Shown here piece by piece: positions 22,349-30,335 of a stretch of DNA of 64,000 nt. Under the pieces are notes generated by a model that was not told where the DNA came from, searched no databases, and worked only from the letters and a program-made list of their open reading frames with translations. A program made the position numbers and the translations under genes. The stretch comes from Kiloniellales bacterium (GTDB taxonomy: Bacteria; Pseudomonadota; Alphaproteobacteria; Kiloniellales; JAKSBE01): contig JASJBF010000032.1 in assembly GCA_030066685.1 (NCBI GenBank), positions 1 through 64,000 on the forward strand, in the 5' to 3' direction. Each line of letters begins with the position of its first letter. Position 1 is the stretch's first letter.

Positions 22349-22390
22349 CTCGGTCACTTTCGCTTAGGACATCGCTTGTACAACCGCAAC
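22349..22390 (+). repeat. Upstream element, copy 1, of the triplicated secreted family
   Basis: CGGTCACTTTCGCTTAGGAC followed by ATCGCTTGTACAACC. The same string recurs before the two paralogues downstream. It ends 105 bp before the start codon of copy 1. It may be a promoter or regulator site carried along with each duplication. Confidence 0.55.
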
Positions 22391-22495
22391 GATAACGCGT
22401 TCGGCTGCCCTGATCCTGCACAGCGCCGCGACGTCGGCGCGATTGAACCAGCCCGGGCCTTCGTCGACGGCCGATGAACCGAATTTGAGGAAAAG

Positions 22496-24103
22496 ATGCC
22501 GGGATATCGTCGCACCTTCCGACCCTTCGTCCCGCTCGGCGTTGCCATCGTGGCATTGCTGACGGCTTCCCCTGGCATGGAGGCGGCGGCGCAGGCCACG
22601 CCCAGCGCCGCGGTCGCAGAGACCTGCAGCTTCCCGAAGCCCTCGGCAAAGGCGACGATCGTGTTCGGCAGAACCGCCCCGACAAGGGCGCTTTCGAGCG
22701 TGGCGCTCGGTTCTCAAGATGACTTGACCTATGTCGCAGACGTGAGAGTCGACAGGGGAACCGGTCCCTTCTACGCGGTCTTGGTCGCCTCGGTGCCCGT
22801 GATTTGGGACGTCGAAGTCGAGGAGGGCGATATCGAACGTCTGGTCGTCATTGGCCCGGGCAAGCGCGGGCCGGTGCGCGCCGGAGTGCGGGGCGTGTCA
22901 CCGAAAATGGTGAGCTTCGTTCCCTTGGAGGCCTGCCAGATCAGCGATGCCGTTCTCTATCGCAGCGAGCGGGACCACGTTCATCGCTTCCTAGAGAGCC
23001 ACCTGGGAAAGCCGCCCGACGACATCGTAAGCTTCGGACGCGATACCAAGGTTATTGTCCTTGGACGTGCCGATTCTTCGACAGCCGGCCGCGCAGCCAG
23101 GATCGAAGCCTTCGATCCGCAGAAAGAGACAGGACAGCGCGAAGCCGGGAAACCGGGTCACGACATCGTCGAACAGCTGAAGGCCGAGATCCGACGATAC
23201 TATCCAGGTGGCATTCGTGAGTTCTCACCCGAAGTCGTCATCGCGCCGGCAGAGGTCGAGCGCTATAGGCCTCTTCCCCACCTGGCAGGCCTCATCCAGC
23301 TCGTGGAAGATGGCGCAATCCGCGCGATATCCCCGGCCGAGGCCCAGGCTTGGCAGGACGGCGCAAGCAGGCCCTATCGGTTCCGGCTCTCCCCCGGTTT
23401 CCGGTACCGCCCTCGCGTTTGGCCACCGAGGTTTGTCGTAACGCGACAGATCCATCTCCCGGCGTACTTGGCCGGCCCCTTTTCGTCGAGCTTTCTGATC
23501 CCCGAGGGGGTTCCGGCGCCGAGTGGCAACCCCAGACACAGCTGCCTCTTCTTCATGGAAGGGTATCGCGTCTTGCCCATGTACTGCGTAGGCGAAGAAC
23601 CGTCCGCCAGGTCTGCCGCTCTGGACCTGAAGCCCGACGAAGCGAAGGCTTGCCGGGTCTTCGAGCTCGACGACGACGAAGAGGTCGCAGCTCTGTCGAT
23701 CTACGGCGGGAAGGACTCGGCGAGCTTCTCCAAGCGAAACAAGAAGGCAGGCGTGGACGTCCTTGTGAAACGGCCGGGCAGGACCGTCCTCGTCGTCAGC
23801 GGCCGTCTGCCGGTCGTCTGGAACATCCGATCCGCGGAAGGCGCTGAGGTCTCGGGAGTCTTGGCGATTGGATACGAGGGCAAGCAGGAGCTGATCGGCT
23901 TGCCGAAGAGCGTCCCCGTCCGTCACCTCTCGAAGAAAGACGTCATTGACGGGCGGCTTTGTTCGCCTGGAGAGTGGCTTCTCAACGCATACGTCGGCGG
24001 GCCCTTCGCGCTGGCCCTGGACGTCTACGTCCAGCGACTGACCGGGCGGCGGATCGACTGGCTCGATGGCACCGAGCGTGCCGAAGCCTTCGTGGTTCCA
24101 TGA
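22496..24103 (+). CDS. Exported cysteine-rich protein of unknown family, tandem copy 1
   Basis: 535 residues. A signal peptide (PFVPLGVAIVALLTASPG, cleavage near AAAQA) sends it out of the cytoplasm. Six cysteines (about 44, 147, 350, 364, 386, 479) are kept in all three copies, so three disulfides are likely. An internal duplication is visible: residues about 66-145 (VLVASVPVIWDVEVEEGD) resemble about 397-468 (VLVVSGRLPVVWNIRSAEGA). A conserved middle block has RYRPRVWPPRFVVTR and SSFLIPEGVP. The C-terminus reads YVQRLTGRRIDWLDG. No catalytic motif or named domain is recognisable. Two paralogues follow directly on the same strand. Confidence 0.75.
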   Translation: MPGYRRTFRPFVPLGVAIVALLTASPGMEAAAQATPSAAVAETCSFPKPSAKATIVFGRTAPTRALSSVALGSQDDLTYVADVRVDRGTGPFYAVLVASVPVIWDVEVEEGDIERLVVIGPGKRGPVRAGVRGVSPKMVSFVPLEACQISDAVLYRSERDHVHRFLESHLGKPPDDIVSFGRDTKVIVLGRADSSTAGRAARIEAFDPQKETGQREAGKPGHDIVEQLKAEIRRYYPGGIREFSPEVVIAPAEVERYRPLPHLAGLIQLVEDGAIRAISPAEAQAWQDGASRPYRFRLSPGFRYRPRVWPPRFVVTRQIHLPAYLAGPFSSSFLIPEGVPAPSGNPRHSCLFFMEGYRVLPMYCVGEEPSARSAALDLKPDEAKACRVFELDDDEEVAALSIYGGKDSASFSKRNKKAGVDVLVKRPGRTVLVVSGRLPVVWNIRSAEGAEVSGVLAIGYEGKQELIGLPKSVPVRHLSKKDVIDGRLCSPGEWLLNAYVGGPFALALDVYVQRLTGRRIDWLDGTERAEAFVVP

Positions 24104-24160
24104 TGACCGGCCTTGGGTTCCCGCTCACGGCGCCAGCGGACTCATCTTCTCGAAGGCCAA

Positions 24161-24204
24161 CTTGGTCCCCTTCGGTTTAGGACAGGCTTTGTACAACCGG
24201 AGCC
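24161..24204 (+). repeat. Upstream element, copy 2
   Basis: TTGGTCCCCTTCGGTTTAGG followed by ACAGGCTTTGTACAACCGG. It corresponds to the elements before copies 1 and 3 and ends 38 bp before the GTG start of copy 2, closer than in the other two. The core GGACA-N4/5-TTGTACAACC is the best-conserved part. Confidence 0.5.
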
Positions 24205-24242
24205 GCCAGACCCTGTGGCGCTTCGTCGAAGTGGAGAAGAAC

Positions 24243-25835
24243 GTGCCGGTAAATCGTCCAGTCTTCCCAGGGTTCGCGCTGCTTGGCGCGGCTGCGACCC
24301 TTCTATTGACGGGCTACACGGCACCGCAGGCTGCAACCCCGGTCGAATGCAAGCTGCCGCAGCCCGCCGAGGGAGCGGAGTTCGTTCTCGCCAGCAGCCA
24401 CCCCTCGAGTCCACTGTCGAGCGTAGCGCTGGGCTCACAGAACGTTGTCACCTACGTGCGCGAGGTCAGGATCGACAGGGAGGCCGGGCCGCTTTATGTC
24501 GTCGTCCTCGCGCCCGTGCCCACCGTTTGGAAGGTCGACGCGCAGGACCACGACCTCGACCGACTCATCGTCGCCGGCCCGGCCGCTCAGGGTGCCACCC
24601 TGGCCGGGGTAAGCGGGTTGCCGCCGGAAAAGGTGACCTTCGTTCCCTTGGAGGCCTGCGGGCTGGGTCTCGCCAGCCGGGACCGTCGCAGCCTGGATGA
24701 CGCGCGCCGGGCCTTGACGTCGCAGCTGGGCCGGCCTCCCGATCACACGTTCACCATCGGCAGTGGAGGCGACAGGTTCGTACTCGGCCGCTCCGATCGC
24801 AAGGCCGACGAAGGCTCAGACCTGGAGAGCTGGTACGAATCCGACCCCCGGGCGGCGGCATGGCGCCAGCGCCAAGCCACCAAGCAGAGCTACGACTTCG
24901 CCGACGAGCTGCAGGCGGAGTTCAGGTTCCGCTTTCCCGGCGGAGTCCGCGAGCTCAGGCCCGAGGAGATCCTCTCGCCCGTCGCGGTCGAGCGCTATGA
25001 GCTTCTCCCCAAAGCGCCTGGACTGCTGCAGCTCGTTGAAGCCGGCGCGCTCCGCCGGATGTCCCCGGCAGAAGCGCGGGCCTGGCAGGAGGGCGCCAGC
25101 AGGCGCTATCGGTTCCGGCTCTCGCCGGACTTCCGGTATCGCCCCCGCAATTGGCCGCCGAGGTTCGTCGTAACGCGCGAGATACGGCTGCCGTTAGGCT
25201 TCGTCGGTAGCCTCAGGTCGAGCTTCTTGGTCCCGGAGGGCGTTCCGCAACCTGAAGGGAACCTCGGCCACGACTGCCTCTTCTTGATGGAGGGATTCCG
25301 CGTATGGCCGAACTCTTGCGCAGGAGAGGCATTCATGGCCCGGCAGGCGATACTGTCCTTGCCACCCGACATCGCCGGAAACTGCCGGGCCCTGGAACCC
25401 GGCAGCGACGTTCACATCGCCGCGCTGTCGGTCCACTCTGCCAGGACCCGACCAAGCGGATCGGGGCGGGGCAGGAAGGCGCGCTTCGACATCCAGGTCA
25501 ACCGTCTTGGCCGAACTCTGCTCGTGATCAGCGGCTACAACTCCGCCGAATGGCGGGTCCGGTTCGGGTACGGTACGGTCATCGCCGGCGTCATCGCGTT
25601 GGCGCACGACGAGGAGCAGGTGATCACCGGACTGCCGAGGACCGTGCCAATCCTTCACATCCTCAAGGACCAGATGCACGACCGCCGGCGTTGCTCTCCG
25701 GGATCGGCGCCGCTCTCGGCACACCGGGGCGGGCCCTTCGCGCTGGCGCTGAACGTCTACGTCGAGCGTCTGACGGGGCGAGAGATCGACTGGCTCGGTG
25801 GTCCCGATAGCACGGGCCGTTTCCTGGTTCCCTAG
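24243..25835 (+). CDS. Exported cysteine-rich protein of unknown family, tandem copy 2
   Basis: 530 residues. I place the start at GTG 24243 because its context (GAAGTGGAGAAGAAC-GTGCCG) lines up base by base with the ATGCCG starts of copies 1 and 3; a longer reading would begin inside copy 1. A hydrophobic N-terminus (GFALLGAAATLLLTGYTAPQ) follows, then the same layout: six matching cysteines, two VxWxV modules (PVPTVWKVDAQDHDLDRL and NSAEWRVRFGYGTVIAGV), the middle RYRPRNWPPRFVVTR and the end YVERLTGREIDWLGG. It starts 139 bp after the stop of copy 1. Function unknown. Confidence 0.75.
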   Translation: MPVNRPVFPGFALLGAAATLLLTGYTAPQAATPVECKLPQPAEGAEFVLASSHPSSPLSSVALGSQNVVTYVREVRIDREAGPLYVVVLAPVPTVWKVDAQDHDLDRLIVAGPAAQGATLAGVSGLPPEKVTFVPLEACGLGLASRDRRSLDDARRALTSQLGRPPDHTFTIGSGGDRFVLGRSDRKADEGSDLESWYESDPRAAAWRQRQATKQSYDFADELQAEFRFRFPGGVRELRPEEILSPVAVERYELLPKAPGLLQLVEAGALRRMSPAEARAWQEGASRRYRFRLSPDFRYRPRNWPPRFVVTREIRLPLGFVGSLRSSFLVPEGVPQPEGNLGHDCLFLMEGFRVWPNSCAGEAFMARQAILSLPPDIAGNCRALEPGSDVHIAALSVHSARTRPSGSGRGRKARFDIQVNRLGRTLLVISGYNSAEWRVRFGYGTVIAGVIALAHDEEQVITGLPRTVPILHILKDQMHDRRRCSPGSAPLSAHRGGPFALALNVYVERLTGREIDWLGGPDSTGRFLVP

Positions 25836-25985
25836 TGTGGTGGTTCTCAATGGCGCGCCTTCGCGTCTTGCCGGGAGGCTGGCGCCAACGCCCAGGGACA
25901 GCCTGCTCCTGGCGCCTTGCCAAGGGTCGACAAGGCGGCGGGCCCAGAACCCATCATTGGCACGCCGATCTTGGTTCTGAAGCCT

Positions 25986-26030
25986 GCTTCGGTCACTTTC
26001 GCTTAAGGACACAGCCTGTAGAACCTGAGC
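25986..26030 (+). repeat. Upstream element, copy 3
   Basis: CTTCGGTCACTTTCGCTTAA followed by GGACACAGCCTGTAGAACC. It is almost the same as copy 1 over CGGTCACTTTCGCTTA and ends 96 bp before the start of copy 3. The TGTACAACC core of copies 1 and 2 reads TGTAGAACC here. Confidence 0.5.
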
Positions 26031-26126
26031 CAGCAGGCCGCGCGCCCTCCGACTCCGGCTTCTTCGACAAGACCTGAAGTGCCGAACGCCTTCGCGCGGG
26101 GCCGAAGGAATGAATTCGAGGATAGA

Positions 26127-27743
26127 ATGCCGATAGTTCGTGCCGCGCACCAACCTTCGAGACGGCTCGCTGCTGCCGTTCTTGCCATCTTGATGGCCGG
26201 CTGTGGGACTGAGGCGGTGACGCAAACAGGCGCCAGGGCCACGGTTGAGAAGGGCTGCCGCCTGCCGCGACCCTCGGAGACGGCGGCGGTCGTGTTCAGC
26301 AGCACCGTCCCGACCGGCGCGCTGTCGACCGTAAGGCTGGGCTCTCAGGACATCACTACCTACGTCGCAGACGTGAGGGTCGAGAAGGGATCCGGGCCTT
26401 TCTATGGAGTCCTCGTTTCTCCAAGGCCTGTGATCTGGAACGTCGAAGCCAAGGGGGATGACCTTGATCGGCTGGTCATCATCGGCCCGGCCAAGCACAA
26501 CTCGCTGAAGGCCGGTGTCCGCGGCGTGGTGGCGAACAAAGTGACCTTCGTTCCGTTGGACGCCTGCCAAATCAAAGAGGGCATTATCTACCGGAGCGAA
26601 AAGGACAAAGTCCGTCGGTTCCTGGAGGGCCGTCTGGGCCGGCCGCCCGACCACATCGTCGGCCAGGATCGCAGGGCCAAGACCATCGTACTTGGCCGCA
26701 GCGCCTCGAGAGACGCGGACGGCGCGAGCCTCGGGGCCTGGACGGAATCCTATAGCGAGGAGGCGCGGAGACGGGCCCACCAAGCCCCAAATCCCAAAGA
26801 TCCCATCGCCGACCAGCTGAAATCGGAGATCCTCCGCTTCTACCCCGGCGGCATCCGGGAGCTCGCACCCGCAGAGGTCCTCTCACCCGTGAAGGTCACG
26901 CGCTATAGGATCCTTCCCAACCAGGCGGGGCTGCTCCAGCTCCTGGAAGACGGCGCGATCCGAGAGACCTCCCTTGACGAAGCCCGGGCCTGGCAGGACA
27001 GCGCCAGCAAGCCCTACCAGTTCCGCCTGTCGCCCGACTTCCGCTACCGCCCCCGCAAATGGCCGCCGAGGTTCGTCGTGACACGGCAGATCCAGCTGCC
27101 GCCGGTGATGGGCGGCGCCCATTCGTCGAGCTTCCTGATACCGGTGGGCGTTCCGGAGCCCAGAGGCGATCGCGGCCACAACTGCTTCTTCTACATGGAG
27201 GGGTCTCGCGTCGGTCCCGAGACCTGCGCGGGCGTGGAGCCAAAGGCCAGGTTGGCAGCCCTTGCATTGCCGCCCGACCACGCGAAGACCTGCCGCGCCC
27301 TGGATGTCGGCGATGATGTGCATATTGCCGCTCTCTCCGTGCATGGCGCCGAGAAACAATCAAGCTCATCTCGGCGGGGGAGGAAGGAAGAAGTCGACGT
27401 CCTGGTAAAGCGGCGCGGAAGAGTCCTGCTCGTGGTCAGCGGCCATCGGTCGGTCGCCTGGACGGTTCGTCCCGCCCAGGGCGCAGACATCGTCGGGGTT
27501 CTGGCCATCGGACTAGAGCGGCCGCAGGAGGTGACCGGACTGCCGAAGAACGTCCCGATACGGCACTTCCTGAAGGACGAGGTCGAGGACGGCCGCCTTT
27601 GCTCACCCGGGGCAGGGTTGGTCGTAGCCTACAAGGGCGGGCCTTTTGCGCAGGCCCTGAACGTCTACGTCCAGCGTCTGACAGGTCGAGAAATCGACTG
27701 GATTGACGGTGCCGCCGCCGCTGACGAGTTCGTGGTACCATGA
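26127..27743 (+). CDS. Exported cysteine-rich protein of unknown family, tandem copy 3 (putative lipoprotein)
   Basis: 538 residues from ATG 26127, whose GAGGATAGA-ATGCCG context matches the other copies; an upstream GTG at 26079 is in frame but lacks that context. The signal sequence RRLAAAVLAILMAGCGTE carries a possible lipobox (Met-Ala-Gly-Cys, Cys 26). Copies 1 and 2 have no cysteine at this point, so only this copy would be membrane-tethered. The six other cysteines, both VxWxV modules (RPVIWNVEAKGDD and RSVAWTVRPAQGAD), the middle RYRPRKWPPRFVVTR and the end YVQRLTGREIDWIDG are conserved. Function unknown. Confidence 0.75.
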   Translation: MPIVRAAHQPSRRLAAAVLAILMAGCGTEAVTQTGARATVEKGCRLPRPSETAAVVFSSTVPTGALSTVRLGSQDITTYVADVRVEKGSGPFYGVLVSPRPVIWNVEAKGDDLDRLVIIGPAKHNSLKAGVRGVVANKVTFVPLDACQIKEGIIYRSEKDKVRRFLEGRLGRPPDHIVGQDRRAKTIVLGRSASRDADGASLGAWTESYSEEARRRAHQAPNPKDPIADQLKSEILRFYPGGIRELAPAEVLSPVKVTRYRILPNQAGLLQLLEDGAIRETSLDEARAWQDSASKPYQFRLSPDFRYRPRKWPPRFVVTRQIQLPPVMGGAHSSSFLIPVGVPEPRGDRGHNCFFYMEGSRVGPETCAGVEPKARLAALALPPDHAKTCRALDVGDDVHIAALSVHGAEKQSSSSRRGRKEEVDVLVKRRGRVLLVVSGHRSVAWTVRPAQGADIVGVLAIGLERPQEVTGLPKNVPIRHFLKDEVEDGRLCSPGAGLVVAYKGGPFAQALNVYVQRLTGREIDWIDGAAAADEFVVP

Positions 27744-28375: not shown

Positions 28376-30316
28376 CTAGTCGGTGGGCTTGGCGGGCGTG
28401 ATGTGCAGATCGGCCGGCGGCTCCTTGAGCCGCGCCTTGGGGGCCCGCGCGAAGAGCAGGTAGATCATCCAGGCGAGGAAGGCCGTCGCCAGGATATTGA
28501 TCAGCGAGGTCGGCAGGTCCGCCACGAGGGGCTGCGGCCCTTCCTCCAAGGCCGGCCGCAAGGCGGCGGCCACGGGCGCGGCGGGATCGACGACCTCGGT
28601 GCTGCCCAGCGCGGCGGCCAGCTTGCGTATGGTCTCCGCCGGGATCGGCTGGGTCGCGGCCGTGCCCGTGGTCCCAGGGCCCTGGGCGCCGAAGGCCTCG
28701 CGCAGGCTGGACGGCCCGGCCAGGACCATCTGGGTGCTGAGGGTCTCGACCGCTCCGGCCTGTCCGGGATAGGTCCCGGCCGGCACCTTGGCAGGCCGCA
28801 GGAAGGAGAAGCGGATCGGCGCGTTGCCCTGGCTCCAGCCCTCGACCGCCAGGAGGCGGTAGCGGCCCGTCTCCATGATGTCGAGCACTGCGCCGTCGCC
28901 CAGCGGCGCCATCACGAAAACCGCGTCGACCAGACCCTTCGACATCGCCTCGACCTGGGCCTTGAGGTCGCCGGACTCCCCGGAGATCAGCTCCACGCCG
29001 CCGATGTCGAGGCCGGCGAGCACGTTGCGGGCGATCCGGTCGGAGGCCGATCCGGCCTCGCCGACGCCGAGGCGCTTGACCTCGGCCAGGGCGGCGGCAC
29101 CGCTGCCCGGAACCATGACGTGGGCCAGGCGATAGCCGACCACGCCCAGCGCCTCGGCCGAGCTGGACAGCACGGCCGCCCCGTCGTCCAGGGAATAGAA
29201 GGACTCGGTGCCGACCACGGCAAGGCGCGCCGCGCCCGAAGTCACGAGATCGAGCGGGTTGGCCGCCCGCGCGACCTCGATGCTGCGTTTCGGGAAGACC
29301 GCCTTGGAGGCCCGCACCGCCCGGCCCGCGGGACCGGAGAGGGAATCCAGGCCGCCGAGGGCCACGGTCAGACTTTCGGCGCCGCCCGCAGCCTCCGCGG
29401 TCTCGTCGACCAGGCCGGCATCGGCCAGGAAGGCCAAGGCGACCGCCGGGACGCTGCGGCCTTCGAGCTCGACCTGGGCGATCAGGCCGCGCATGGCATC
29501 GGCGGTGACCTGATCCTTCAGCAGGGTCATGGCACCGGAGAGCTTCGGGAAGCGGGCCAGCGCGTCCTCACGGACCAAAGGCGAGGGCTCGTAGACCGGG
29601 AAGAAACTCAGGTCGTCCTCCAGCACCGCCAGGTCGAAGGCGGCGATCTGGGAATCGGTGCGGAAGAGCTCGGCCACCTTGACCTCGCCGTCGAGCAGGG
29701 CCTGGACGATCTTGTCCTTGCCGCCGTCGTCTAGGGAATAGGACTGGACCTTGCCCTCGGTCAGACCGTAGCGGCGGATCATCGCCCCGAGGCCGTCCAG
29801 CGGACGCTCGAGGAAGTCCGTGTCCGTCGCGATCTCCAGCGGCCCCAGGCCGGCCAGGTCGGAGATTTTCGCGACTCCGAGCGACTGCGCCTCCTCGGGC
29901 CGCATGACCAGGACGTAGTCGTTGGAGAACCCCAAGGATTCGCCCCAGGTCAACTCCAAGGGGCCGTAGAGCTCGCGCACCCGGGCCAGGGCCGCCTTGC
30001 CGTCGGCCATGGCCGGCTGGCCGAGATAGACCAGGCCGGTGCCGTTGTATTCCGGATAGAGGTCGATCTTGCCCTGCTTCAGAGCCTCGAAGACCTCCGC
30101 CGAGCGGCCGTAGGGAATCGCGCGCTGAACCGTGATGCCTTCGCGCTCGGCCAGCTGGGCCAGCATTTCGGCCATCAGCATGTTCTCGGTGAAGTTCTTG
30201 CCAGCGACGCGCAGGACCGGCGGCTCCTCCTCGCAGGCCGCGAGCCCGAAGGCCGCGGCGGCCAGCAGCAGACCCGCCAGCGAACGACGAAGGGACGGCA
30301 CAGAAAGGCGTTTCAT
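28376..30316 (-). CDS. Lipoprotein fusing an OpuAC/ProX-type and a TAXI-type substrate-binding domain, with C-terminal membrane helix
   Basis: 646 residues, start at ATG 30316 (GGAGG with 9-nt spacing). A lipobox LAAC puts the modified Cys at residue 28. Residues about 33-300 have the glycine-betaine-type fold: VAGKNFTENMLMAEMLAQLA, then KIDLYPEYNGTGLVYLG and LEIATDTDFLERPLDG. Residues about 315-545 look like a TRAP-TAXI/NMT1-type binding protein (AVVGTESFYSLDDG, GLVDAVFVMAPLGDGAVLD, RYRLLAVEGWSQG). Near the C-terminus a helix (about 603-625, TSLINILATAFLAWMIYLLF) anchors it again, with a short cytoplasmic tail. It sits 19 bp after the BCCT gene. No ABC permease, ATPase or TRAP genes are near. 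Confidence 0.8.
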   Translation of the reverse strand: MKRLSVPSLRRSLAGLLLAAAAFGLAACEEEPPVLRVAGKNFTENMLMAEMLAQLAEREGITVQRAIPYGRSAEVFEALKQGKIDLYPEYNGTGLVYLGQPAMADGKAALARVRELYGPLELTWGESLGFSNDYVLVMRPEEAQSLGVAKISDLAGLGPLEIATDTDFLERPLDGLGAMIRRYGLTEGKVQSYSLDDGGKDKIVQALLDGEVKVAELFRTDSQIAAFDLAVLEDDLSFFPVYEPSPLVREDALARFPKLSGAMTLLKDQVTADAMRGLIAQVELEGRSVPAVALAFLADAGLVDETAEAAGGAESLTVALGGLDSLSGPAGRAVRASKAVFPKRSIEVARAANPLDLVTSGAARLAVVGTESFYSLDDGAAVLSSSAEALGVVGYRLAHVMVPGSGAAALAEVKRLGVGEAGSASDRIARNVLAGLDIGGVELISGESGDLKAQVEAMSKGLVDAVFVMAPLGDGAVLDIMETGRYRLLAVEGWSQGNAPIRFSFLRPAKVPAGTYPGQAGAVETLSTQMVLAGPSSLREAFGAQGPGTTGTAATQPIPAETIRKLAAALGSTEVVDPAAPVAAALRPALEEGPQPLVADLPTSLINILATAFLAWMIYLLFARAPKARLKEPPADLHITPAKPTD

Positions 30317-30335
30317 GTCCATGATCCTCCTCCCC

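Follow-up and report, generated by a model that had tools for sequence, protein, structure and literature searches.

What kind of protein is encoded by three consecutive genes that lie head to tail within a 64,000-nucleotide stretch of Kiloniellales bacterium contig JASJBF010000032.1 (the whole stretch being referred to here as the window), and does its architecture have relatives elsewhere? A first-pass annotation read these genes, here called P1, P2 and P3, as a triplicated family of exported, cysteine-rich proteins with no known domain. We find that the tandem family is real and unnamed in the libraries that we searched, and that its repeated module is probably homologous to a domain of animal TGF-beta co-receptors, namely the orphan domain of betaglycan (TGFBR3) and endoglin (CD105). 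The explanation that we favor as a whole, with a probability of roughly 0.5, is that the genes encode exported binding proteins with the domain order A-B-A', in which A and A' are orphan-domain homologues, and that the gene has been tripled. The genes and their domains, with the evidence on which each rests, are as follows (pLDDT, predicted local distance difference test).

22496 to 24103, plus strand: P1, 535 amino acids, with an apparent signal sequence, A, B and A' (open reading frame, alignment, AlphaFold model with pLDDT 78.9)
22613 to 23065, plus strand: P1 domain A, orphan-domain-like, about residues 40-190 (model, Foldseek, VIA)
23171 to 23605, plus strand: P1 domain B, about residues 226-370, holding RYRPR.WPPRFVVTR and C350/C364
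23633 to 24100, plus strand: P1 domain A', homologous to A, about residues 380-535 (model, profile comparison)
24243 to 25835, plus strand: P2, 530 amino acids, GTG start, layout A-B-A' (open reading frame, alignment)
24336 to 24788, plus strand: P2 domain A, about residues 32-182 (alignment with P1)
24903 to 25337, plus strand: P2 domain B, about residues 221-365 (alignment with P1)
25365 to 25832, plus strand: P2 domain A', about residues 375-530 (alignment and A' profile match)
26127 to 27743, plus strand: P3, 538 amino acids, layout A-B-A', extra cysteine C26 (open reading frame, alignment)
26244 to 26696, plus strand: P3 domain A, about residues 40-190 (alignment with P1)
26811 to 27245, plus strand: P3 domain B, about residues 229-373 (alignment with P1)
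27273 to 27740, plus strand: P3 domain A', about residues 383-538 (alignment and A' profile match)

The earlier description of three head-to-tail genes of 530-538 codons agrees with these coordinates, as does its end point at 27743; its start at 22349, however, lies upstream of P1. P2 and P3 share 48% and 57% amino-acid identity, respectively, with P1, and all three proteins open with MP followed by a hydrophobic stretch that, judged by eye, looks like the signal sequence first proposed. Six cysteines are conserved across the three proteins, P3 having a seventh, and the cysteine pair flanking the module is spaced by 103 residues in all six module copies. A disulfide probably holds each copy of A and A', and B is a separate domain with a cysteine pair of its own; the pairs expected in P1 are C44-C147, C350-C364 and C386-C489. 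The middle block RYRPR.WPPRFVVTR and the end block YV.RLTGR.IDW are present in all three proteins, although the longer ending IDWL.G proposed for them holds only in part (IDWLDG, IDWLGG and IDWIDG). Similarly, the proline of the reported P.vW motif is found in four of six copies but is missing from the second copies of P2 (SAEW) and P3 (SVAW). As first reported, the family has no name in Pfam or NCBIfam: Pfam gives no match above its cut-off for P1-P3 (the sole match below it being DUF460 for P3, E 0.19), NCBIfam gives none, and PHROGs gives just weak, unnamed matches, the best at 0.09. Residues 22-26 of P3 (window positions 26190-26204) form a lipobox-like LMAGC, whereas P1 and P2 have no such cysteine; P3 may therefore be a lipoprotein.

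At the level of fold, the statement that these proteins contain no known domain is overturned by two predicted models. The AlphaFold model of P1, computed from a 71-row alignment (mean pLDDT 78.9), has a confidence mostly above 88 in A and of about 90 in the core strands of A', with values of 58-68 in two A' loops. When the model was compared with the PDB using Foldseek, ranks 1-9 were all betaglycan/endoglin orphan domains (best E 1.4e-6, six at E<=0.001), and VIA returned eight betaglycan/endoglin entries with Z values of 10.1 to 7.7 before the next row at 3.1, one entry superposing at 3.6 Å over 120 residues. VIA warns that Z values under 8 can be common, and the gap to the next row weighs more than the value itself. 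The second model, of the A-B part of a Rhodoplanes family member, was built from 66 rows that include no window sequence (pLDDT 90.6, predicted template modeling score 0.86). Here betaglycan/endoglin entries occupy Foldseek ranks 1-7 (E 3.4e-4 to 0.18, one at E<=0.001) and superpose in VIA with Z values of 8.4-9.7 and deviations of 2.0-3.4 Å over 104-122 residues, the next row being at 2.2; the best superposition is with zebrafish betaglycan (2.0 Å over 105 residues). The two models are not fully independent, because most alignment rows are common to both. A fold search of BFVD gave no match at E<=0.001.

Profile comparisons, for which seven orphan-domain fragments taken from the PDB served as the vertebrate reference, point in the same direction. 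In the first comparison, A scored 31.1 (probability 58, against no more than 16.1 in 20 shuffles), A' 24.5 (probability 9.8, shuffles up to 16.7) and A and A' together 32.6 (probability 62, shuffles up to 14.9). With deeper profiles, to which distant forms had been added, these scores became 32.5 (probability 66), 38.1 (probability 82) and 37.8 (probability 86.5, E 4.6e-6), set against maxima of 15.7, 18.5 and 14.2, respectively, in 50 shuffles each. Reversed vertebrate profiles scored 8.5-12.1 (10.0 against A and A' together), and 38 decoy clusters of neighboring proteins reached at most 20.1. In the most neutral of the sequence tests, an 18-row A' profile (A12) was compared with all 177,635 PDB sequences and gave three matches at E<=10, all of them betaglycan, with a best E of 0.0012. 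Moreover, when 290 single proteins (72 from the family, 218 others) were ranked by the vertebrate profile, the top eight were all family members (area under the curve 0.74), although the associated p value of 8e-10 is too favorable, given the relatedness of proteins within the family; P1, P2 and P3 themselves scored 19.5, 17.5 and 16.2, compared with 20.9 for the highest-scoring protein from outside it.

Several observations weigh against the explanation that we favor. Fragments of orphan domain 1 (OD1) or 2 (OD2) alone give weak matches (probability 1.3 to 16), A' is no better than shuffles against OD1 fragments alone, and the bacterial/vertebrate profile match is confined to about the first 60 module columns. 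Profiles A9, A3 and A11 find no betaglycan match among PDB sequences; the mixed profile A13 ranks betaglycan first, but at E 0.088 and with BamB entries at 0.12-0.38, and the P1 sequence by itself retrieves only unrelated PDB entries, all at E 0.92 or more. Seven of the eight VIA entries cover both modules of P1 with root-mean-square deviations of 15.9-18.1 Å, which is a poor whole-protein superposition. In addition, the endoglin structures were released in 2017, before the AlphaFold2 training cut-off, so the models may be biased. Beyond the fold itself, the six scanned neighbors of P1-P3 look ordinary, and two same-genus genomes (G001 and G002, one of them 81% complete and the other 10% contaminated) give no match to the genes. 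Finally, strongly conserved polar residues, described below, may keep an enzymatic reading alive.

In one alternative, the likeness to orphan domains arose by convergence, or from a bias of AlphaFold toward a fold that it had seen, without common descent. The module is a mainly beta domain with 7-14% identity to orphan domains in the structural alignments, and the sequence-only results are mixed. Yet no other fold exceeds Z 3.1 in either VIA list, sequence profiles place the orphan-domain family first without the use of structures, and the opening cysteine and the strand with a tryptophan align in register between the bacterial module and the orphan domain. We consequently regard convergence or bias as unlikely. 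Taken by itself the sequence evidence is suggestive; joined to the fold match, it makes it quite likely that A and A' are homologous at the domain level to the orphan domain of betaglycan and endoglin. Crystal structures are said to come from Saito 2017 for endoglin and from Kim 2019 for betaglycan.

This probable kinship does not make P1-P3 co-receptors of the endoglin/betaglycan family. The bacterial proteins resemble betaglycan and endoglin in the predicted fold of A, in having two modules per protein, and in the register of the opening cysteine and tryptophan strand; they differ in being bacterial, in having B between the modules, and in how the modules are placed, as the two-module deviations of 15.9-18.1 Å indicate. 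OD1 and OD2 are described, in an excerpt of PMC11865472, as closely joined through paired strands in a defined orientation. Such direct pairing is absent from the P1 model, in which B separates A and A', and Pfam finds no zona pellucida domain in P1-P3; on these two grounds we conclude that they are not co-receptors. Domain B scores inside the shuffled range when its profile is compared with those of the orphan domains.

In the P1 model, the order of strands and helices is the same in A and A', so that the two internal modules are not predicted to differ in fold; A and A' are taken to be two types of one module of about 150 residues, mainly beta with helix. The internal duplication proposed at the outset thus stands insofar as each protein has two homologous modules, but the second did not arise by recent copying of the first, and the borders given (about residues 66-145 and 397-468) were too narrow, those in P1 being about 38-190 and 375-535. 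Aligning an A-type profile (46 rows) with an A'-type profile (19 rows) gives a probability of 98.8 and E 6.9e-17; an earlier comparison of 71 with 8 rows gave 97.8, E 1e-12 and a score of 77.4, whereas 40 column-shuffled controls scored at most 17.8. Profiles deeper than a few sequences were required for this homology to become convincing: with A' restricted to four sequences the probability was just 27.5 (E 6.5e-4, score 27.4), and the three window sequences alone gave nothing significant. The A12 profile, which incorporates the second modules of the window proteins themselves, detects the first module in P1, P2 and P3 at 8.3e-7 to 5.5e-6. Used as queries on the 46 A and 19 A' modules, the A' modules of P1-P3 match A'-type modules that belong to other proteins, in part to proteins of another class, and none of the 46 A modules is returned at E<=10. 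We dropped the idea that A' is a fresh copy of A, since its relatives in other proteins are closer to it than A is; A' would instead be an old sister type of A, acquired through fusion or ancient duplication.

P1-P3 are part of a larger unnamed family whose members come mostly from Alphaproteobacteria. With the own genome counted, 5 of the 61 genomes from the order contain relatives recognized by a three-protein profile, and a wider profile finds them in 7 of 385 genomes of the class and 7 of 398 of the phylum, the latter two counts being lower bounds with at most five candidates scored per genome. A degenerate DNA pattern built on the most conserved stretch and run on genome contigs matched 90 stretches, and a family member was recognized by hidden Markov model in 78 of them (69/80 plus 9/10). 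The 11 non-member stretches among the 80 with titles carry names from outside Alphaproteobacteria and represent matches by chance; the 69 member loci are titled Alphaproteobacteria or taxa within it, one being titled just Pseudomonadota. This spread is biased toward Alphaproteobacteria because the pattern was derived from alphaproteobacterial sequences, and distant forms do occur outside that class, in 2 of 48 genomes of the class of genome G448 and 5 of 321 of the class of G631. Searches of plasmid and phage records with P1, and of plasmid records with a Rhizobium family member, gave no match; a single-protein scan of genome contigs returned 101 stretches, none confirmed, and 0 of 33 viral contigs scanned with a four-row alignment were confirmed.

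A fourth, distant relative is encoded in the own genome (contig C6, locus L052, 7348-8331; 327 residues, lipoprotein-like by eye). Together with proteins at L022 7228-8214 and L053 7442-8440, it forms a set of lipoprotein-like proteins of 327-332 amino acids with a single A' module, 43-50% mutual identity across three genomes of the order, and no clear conserved neighbors. In a non-alphaproteobacterial genome, three adjacent genes at L157 177-4928 combine A'-type modules, B and an unnamed N-terminal region.

Confining the family to proteins of the window type proved too narrow, because the wider family is associated with EF-hands or LprI. The usual member has an N-terminal region with EF-hand loops, followed by A and then B at the C-terminus; the layout A-B-A' was seen outside the window only in L102 of Bradyrhizobium among the proteins examined. 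A simple pattern finds an EF-hand loop in 65 of 83 family open reading frames (59/74 plus 6/9), several of the other 18 being fragments truncated at locus ends, and 3 of 10 relatives scanned exceed the Pfam EF-hand cut-off. P1-P3 have no such loop by pattern or by Pfam, and may have lost it. By description, the many members with EF-hand loops behind an apparent signal sequence can be likened to the bacterial EF-hand proteins calsymin, EfhP and CaBP. This raises the alternative that the family consists of calcium-responsive proteins of envelope stress or homeostasis in which the EF-hands do the work, A-B is an anchor, and the window copies are leftovers; in Caulobacter, the EF-hand protein CaBP, which is periplasmic, has a role in stress, according to an excerpt of PMC13171946. 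P1-P3, however, lack the loop and yet retain invariant blocks and a ratio of nonsynonymous to synonymous substitution rates (dN/dS) of 0.39-0.48, and A-B also occurs with LprI and without EF-hands, so that A-B is the constant part. This calcium-based account therefore seems to us rather improbable.

Fusions to LprI, the family of lysozyme-inhibitor proteins (PF07007), would similarly allow the family to bind or inhibit lysozyme or other peptidoglycan hydrolases. Some relatives carry LprI joined to A' and B; the domain scores 31.5 bits in L159 (Pfam cut-off 22) and 22.3, barely over the cut-off, in one L179 protein, with a weak match under the cut-off in L051. Such cases are few, however, and Pfam finds no LprI in P1-P3 or in the EF-hand members scanned; we consider a role in hydrolase inhibition distinctly unlikely.

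Local triplication is borne out by the 71-row tree, in which P1-P3 group as a single clade (100/100), P1 being closest to P3 (100/86), and L102 falls outside, though on a very long branch. Adjacent family genes are also found elsewhere: Denitrobaculum encodes four family proteins within 13 kb, L061, L063 and L097 each have a pair, and L157 has three such genes, with Rhodoplanes and Limibaculum among the cases. The three Denitrobaculum copies included in the tree cluster together (100/95) apart from the window copies, and the Limibaculum pair are sisters (100/93), indicating repeated expansion of the family; the two genes of the L061 pair are not sisters, nor are those of the L097 pair. The recurrence of adjacent genes here and in Denitrobaculum, Rhodoplanes, Limibaculum, L097 and L157, and their absence from the two same-genus genomes, would suit adhesins or inter-bacterial factors under diversifying selection. 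Whole-gene dN and dS for the three pairs of P1-P3 are 0.43/1.00, 0.32/0.83 and 0.41/0.84, giving average ratios of 0.39-0.48 at dS 0.8-1.0; selection is purifying on average, and these ratios, which are averages over genes and not over single sites, give no support to the diversifying use first suggested. With ratios well below 1, and no secretion, immunity or adhesin gene among the six neighbors scanned, we give such factors a low probability.

Those six neighbors encode an M24 peptidase, a LysR regulator, a universal stress protein, a betaine-binding protein, a BCCT transporter and one protein without a Pfam match at E<=0.001. The protein encoded at window positions 28379-30322 combines an OpuAC betaine-binding domain with an NMT1-like domain, and its gene adjoins that of the BCCT transporter. 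At other family loci, a DNA methyltransferase-like gene, presumably CcrM-like, lies within the same 8-kb stretch in 9 of 69 cases (L059, L061, L068, L072, L100, L117, L129, L134 and L136), mostly in Bradyrhizobium and relatives; a functional link was set aside, the recurrence being taken as shared descent. Related open reading frames of about 225-272 amino acids stand beside the family gene at L082 3231-3935, L108 2150-2968 and L127 3666-4343, that of L082 having EF-hand-like loops without A or B.

What, then, might P1-P3 do? A secreted or surface binding factor is a plausible candidate role. Orphan domains bind growth factors, as stated in excerpts of PMC11865472 and PMC3275592, and by analogy the ligand of A and A' would be a protein or a glycan, either extracellular or located in the envelope. 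Binding by the window proteins would operate without calcium control, the three copies could serve different partners, and the EF-hands or LprI of relatives could supply regulation or an additional activity. Across the 66 A-B rows, the positions conserved in 70% or more are occupied mainly by glycine, proline, cysteine, tryptophan and hydrophobic residues, with no obvious catalytic set, and we infer that a binding scaffold fits them better than an enzyme. The conserved polar residues on which an enzymatic reading might draw are R77 (100%), Q243 (97%), Y232 (92%), S32 (91%), S162 (86%) and H293 (79%). We put forward the binding mechanism tentatively, and with less confidence than the homology.

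The N-terminal region of endoglin was called "orphan" for having no homology to any known protein, as an excerpt of PMC3275592 put it in 2012, and no report of bacterial orphan-domain relatives appears among the matches listed from open-licence PMC papers, a collection that excludes subscription papers. A bolder proposal, which we rate as possible but somewhat doubtful, is that the orphan domain is no animal invention but is either descended from an exported binding module of Pseudomonadota, fused there to EF-hands or LprI, or of common ancestry with it. On that view the bacterial family could represent the first capture receptors with this fold outside animals, which may themselves have acquired it from bacteria. 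A bacterial family that has this fold, with some support from sequence, would supply the endoglin/betaglycan orphan domain with relatives and open its origin to testing, and it would help to separate old features, such as the tryptophan strand and the cysteines, from those of growth-factor capture. For the bacteria themselves, the analysis points to an unannotated family and offers a hypothesis about the structure of many EF-hand proteins that rhizobia and related bacteria apparently export.

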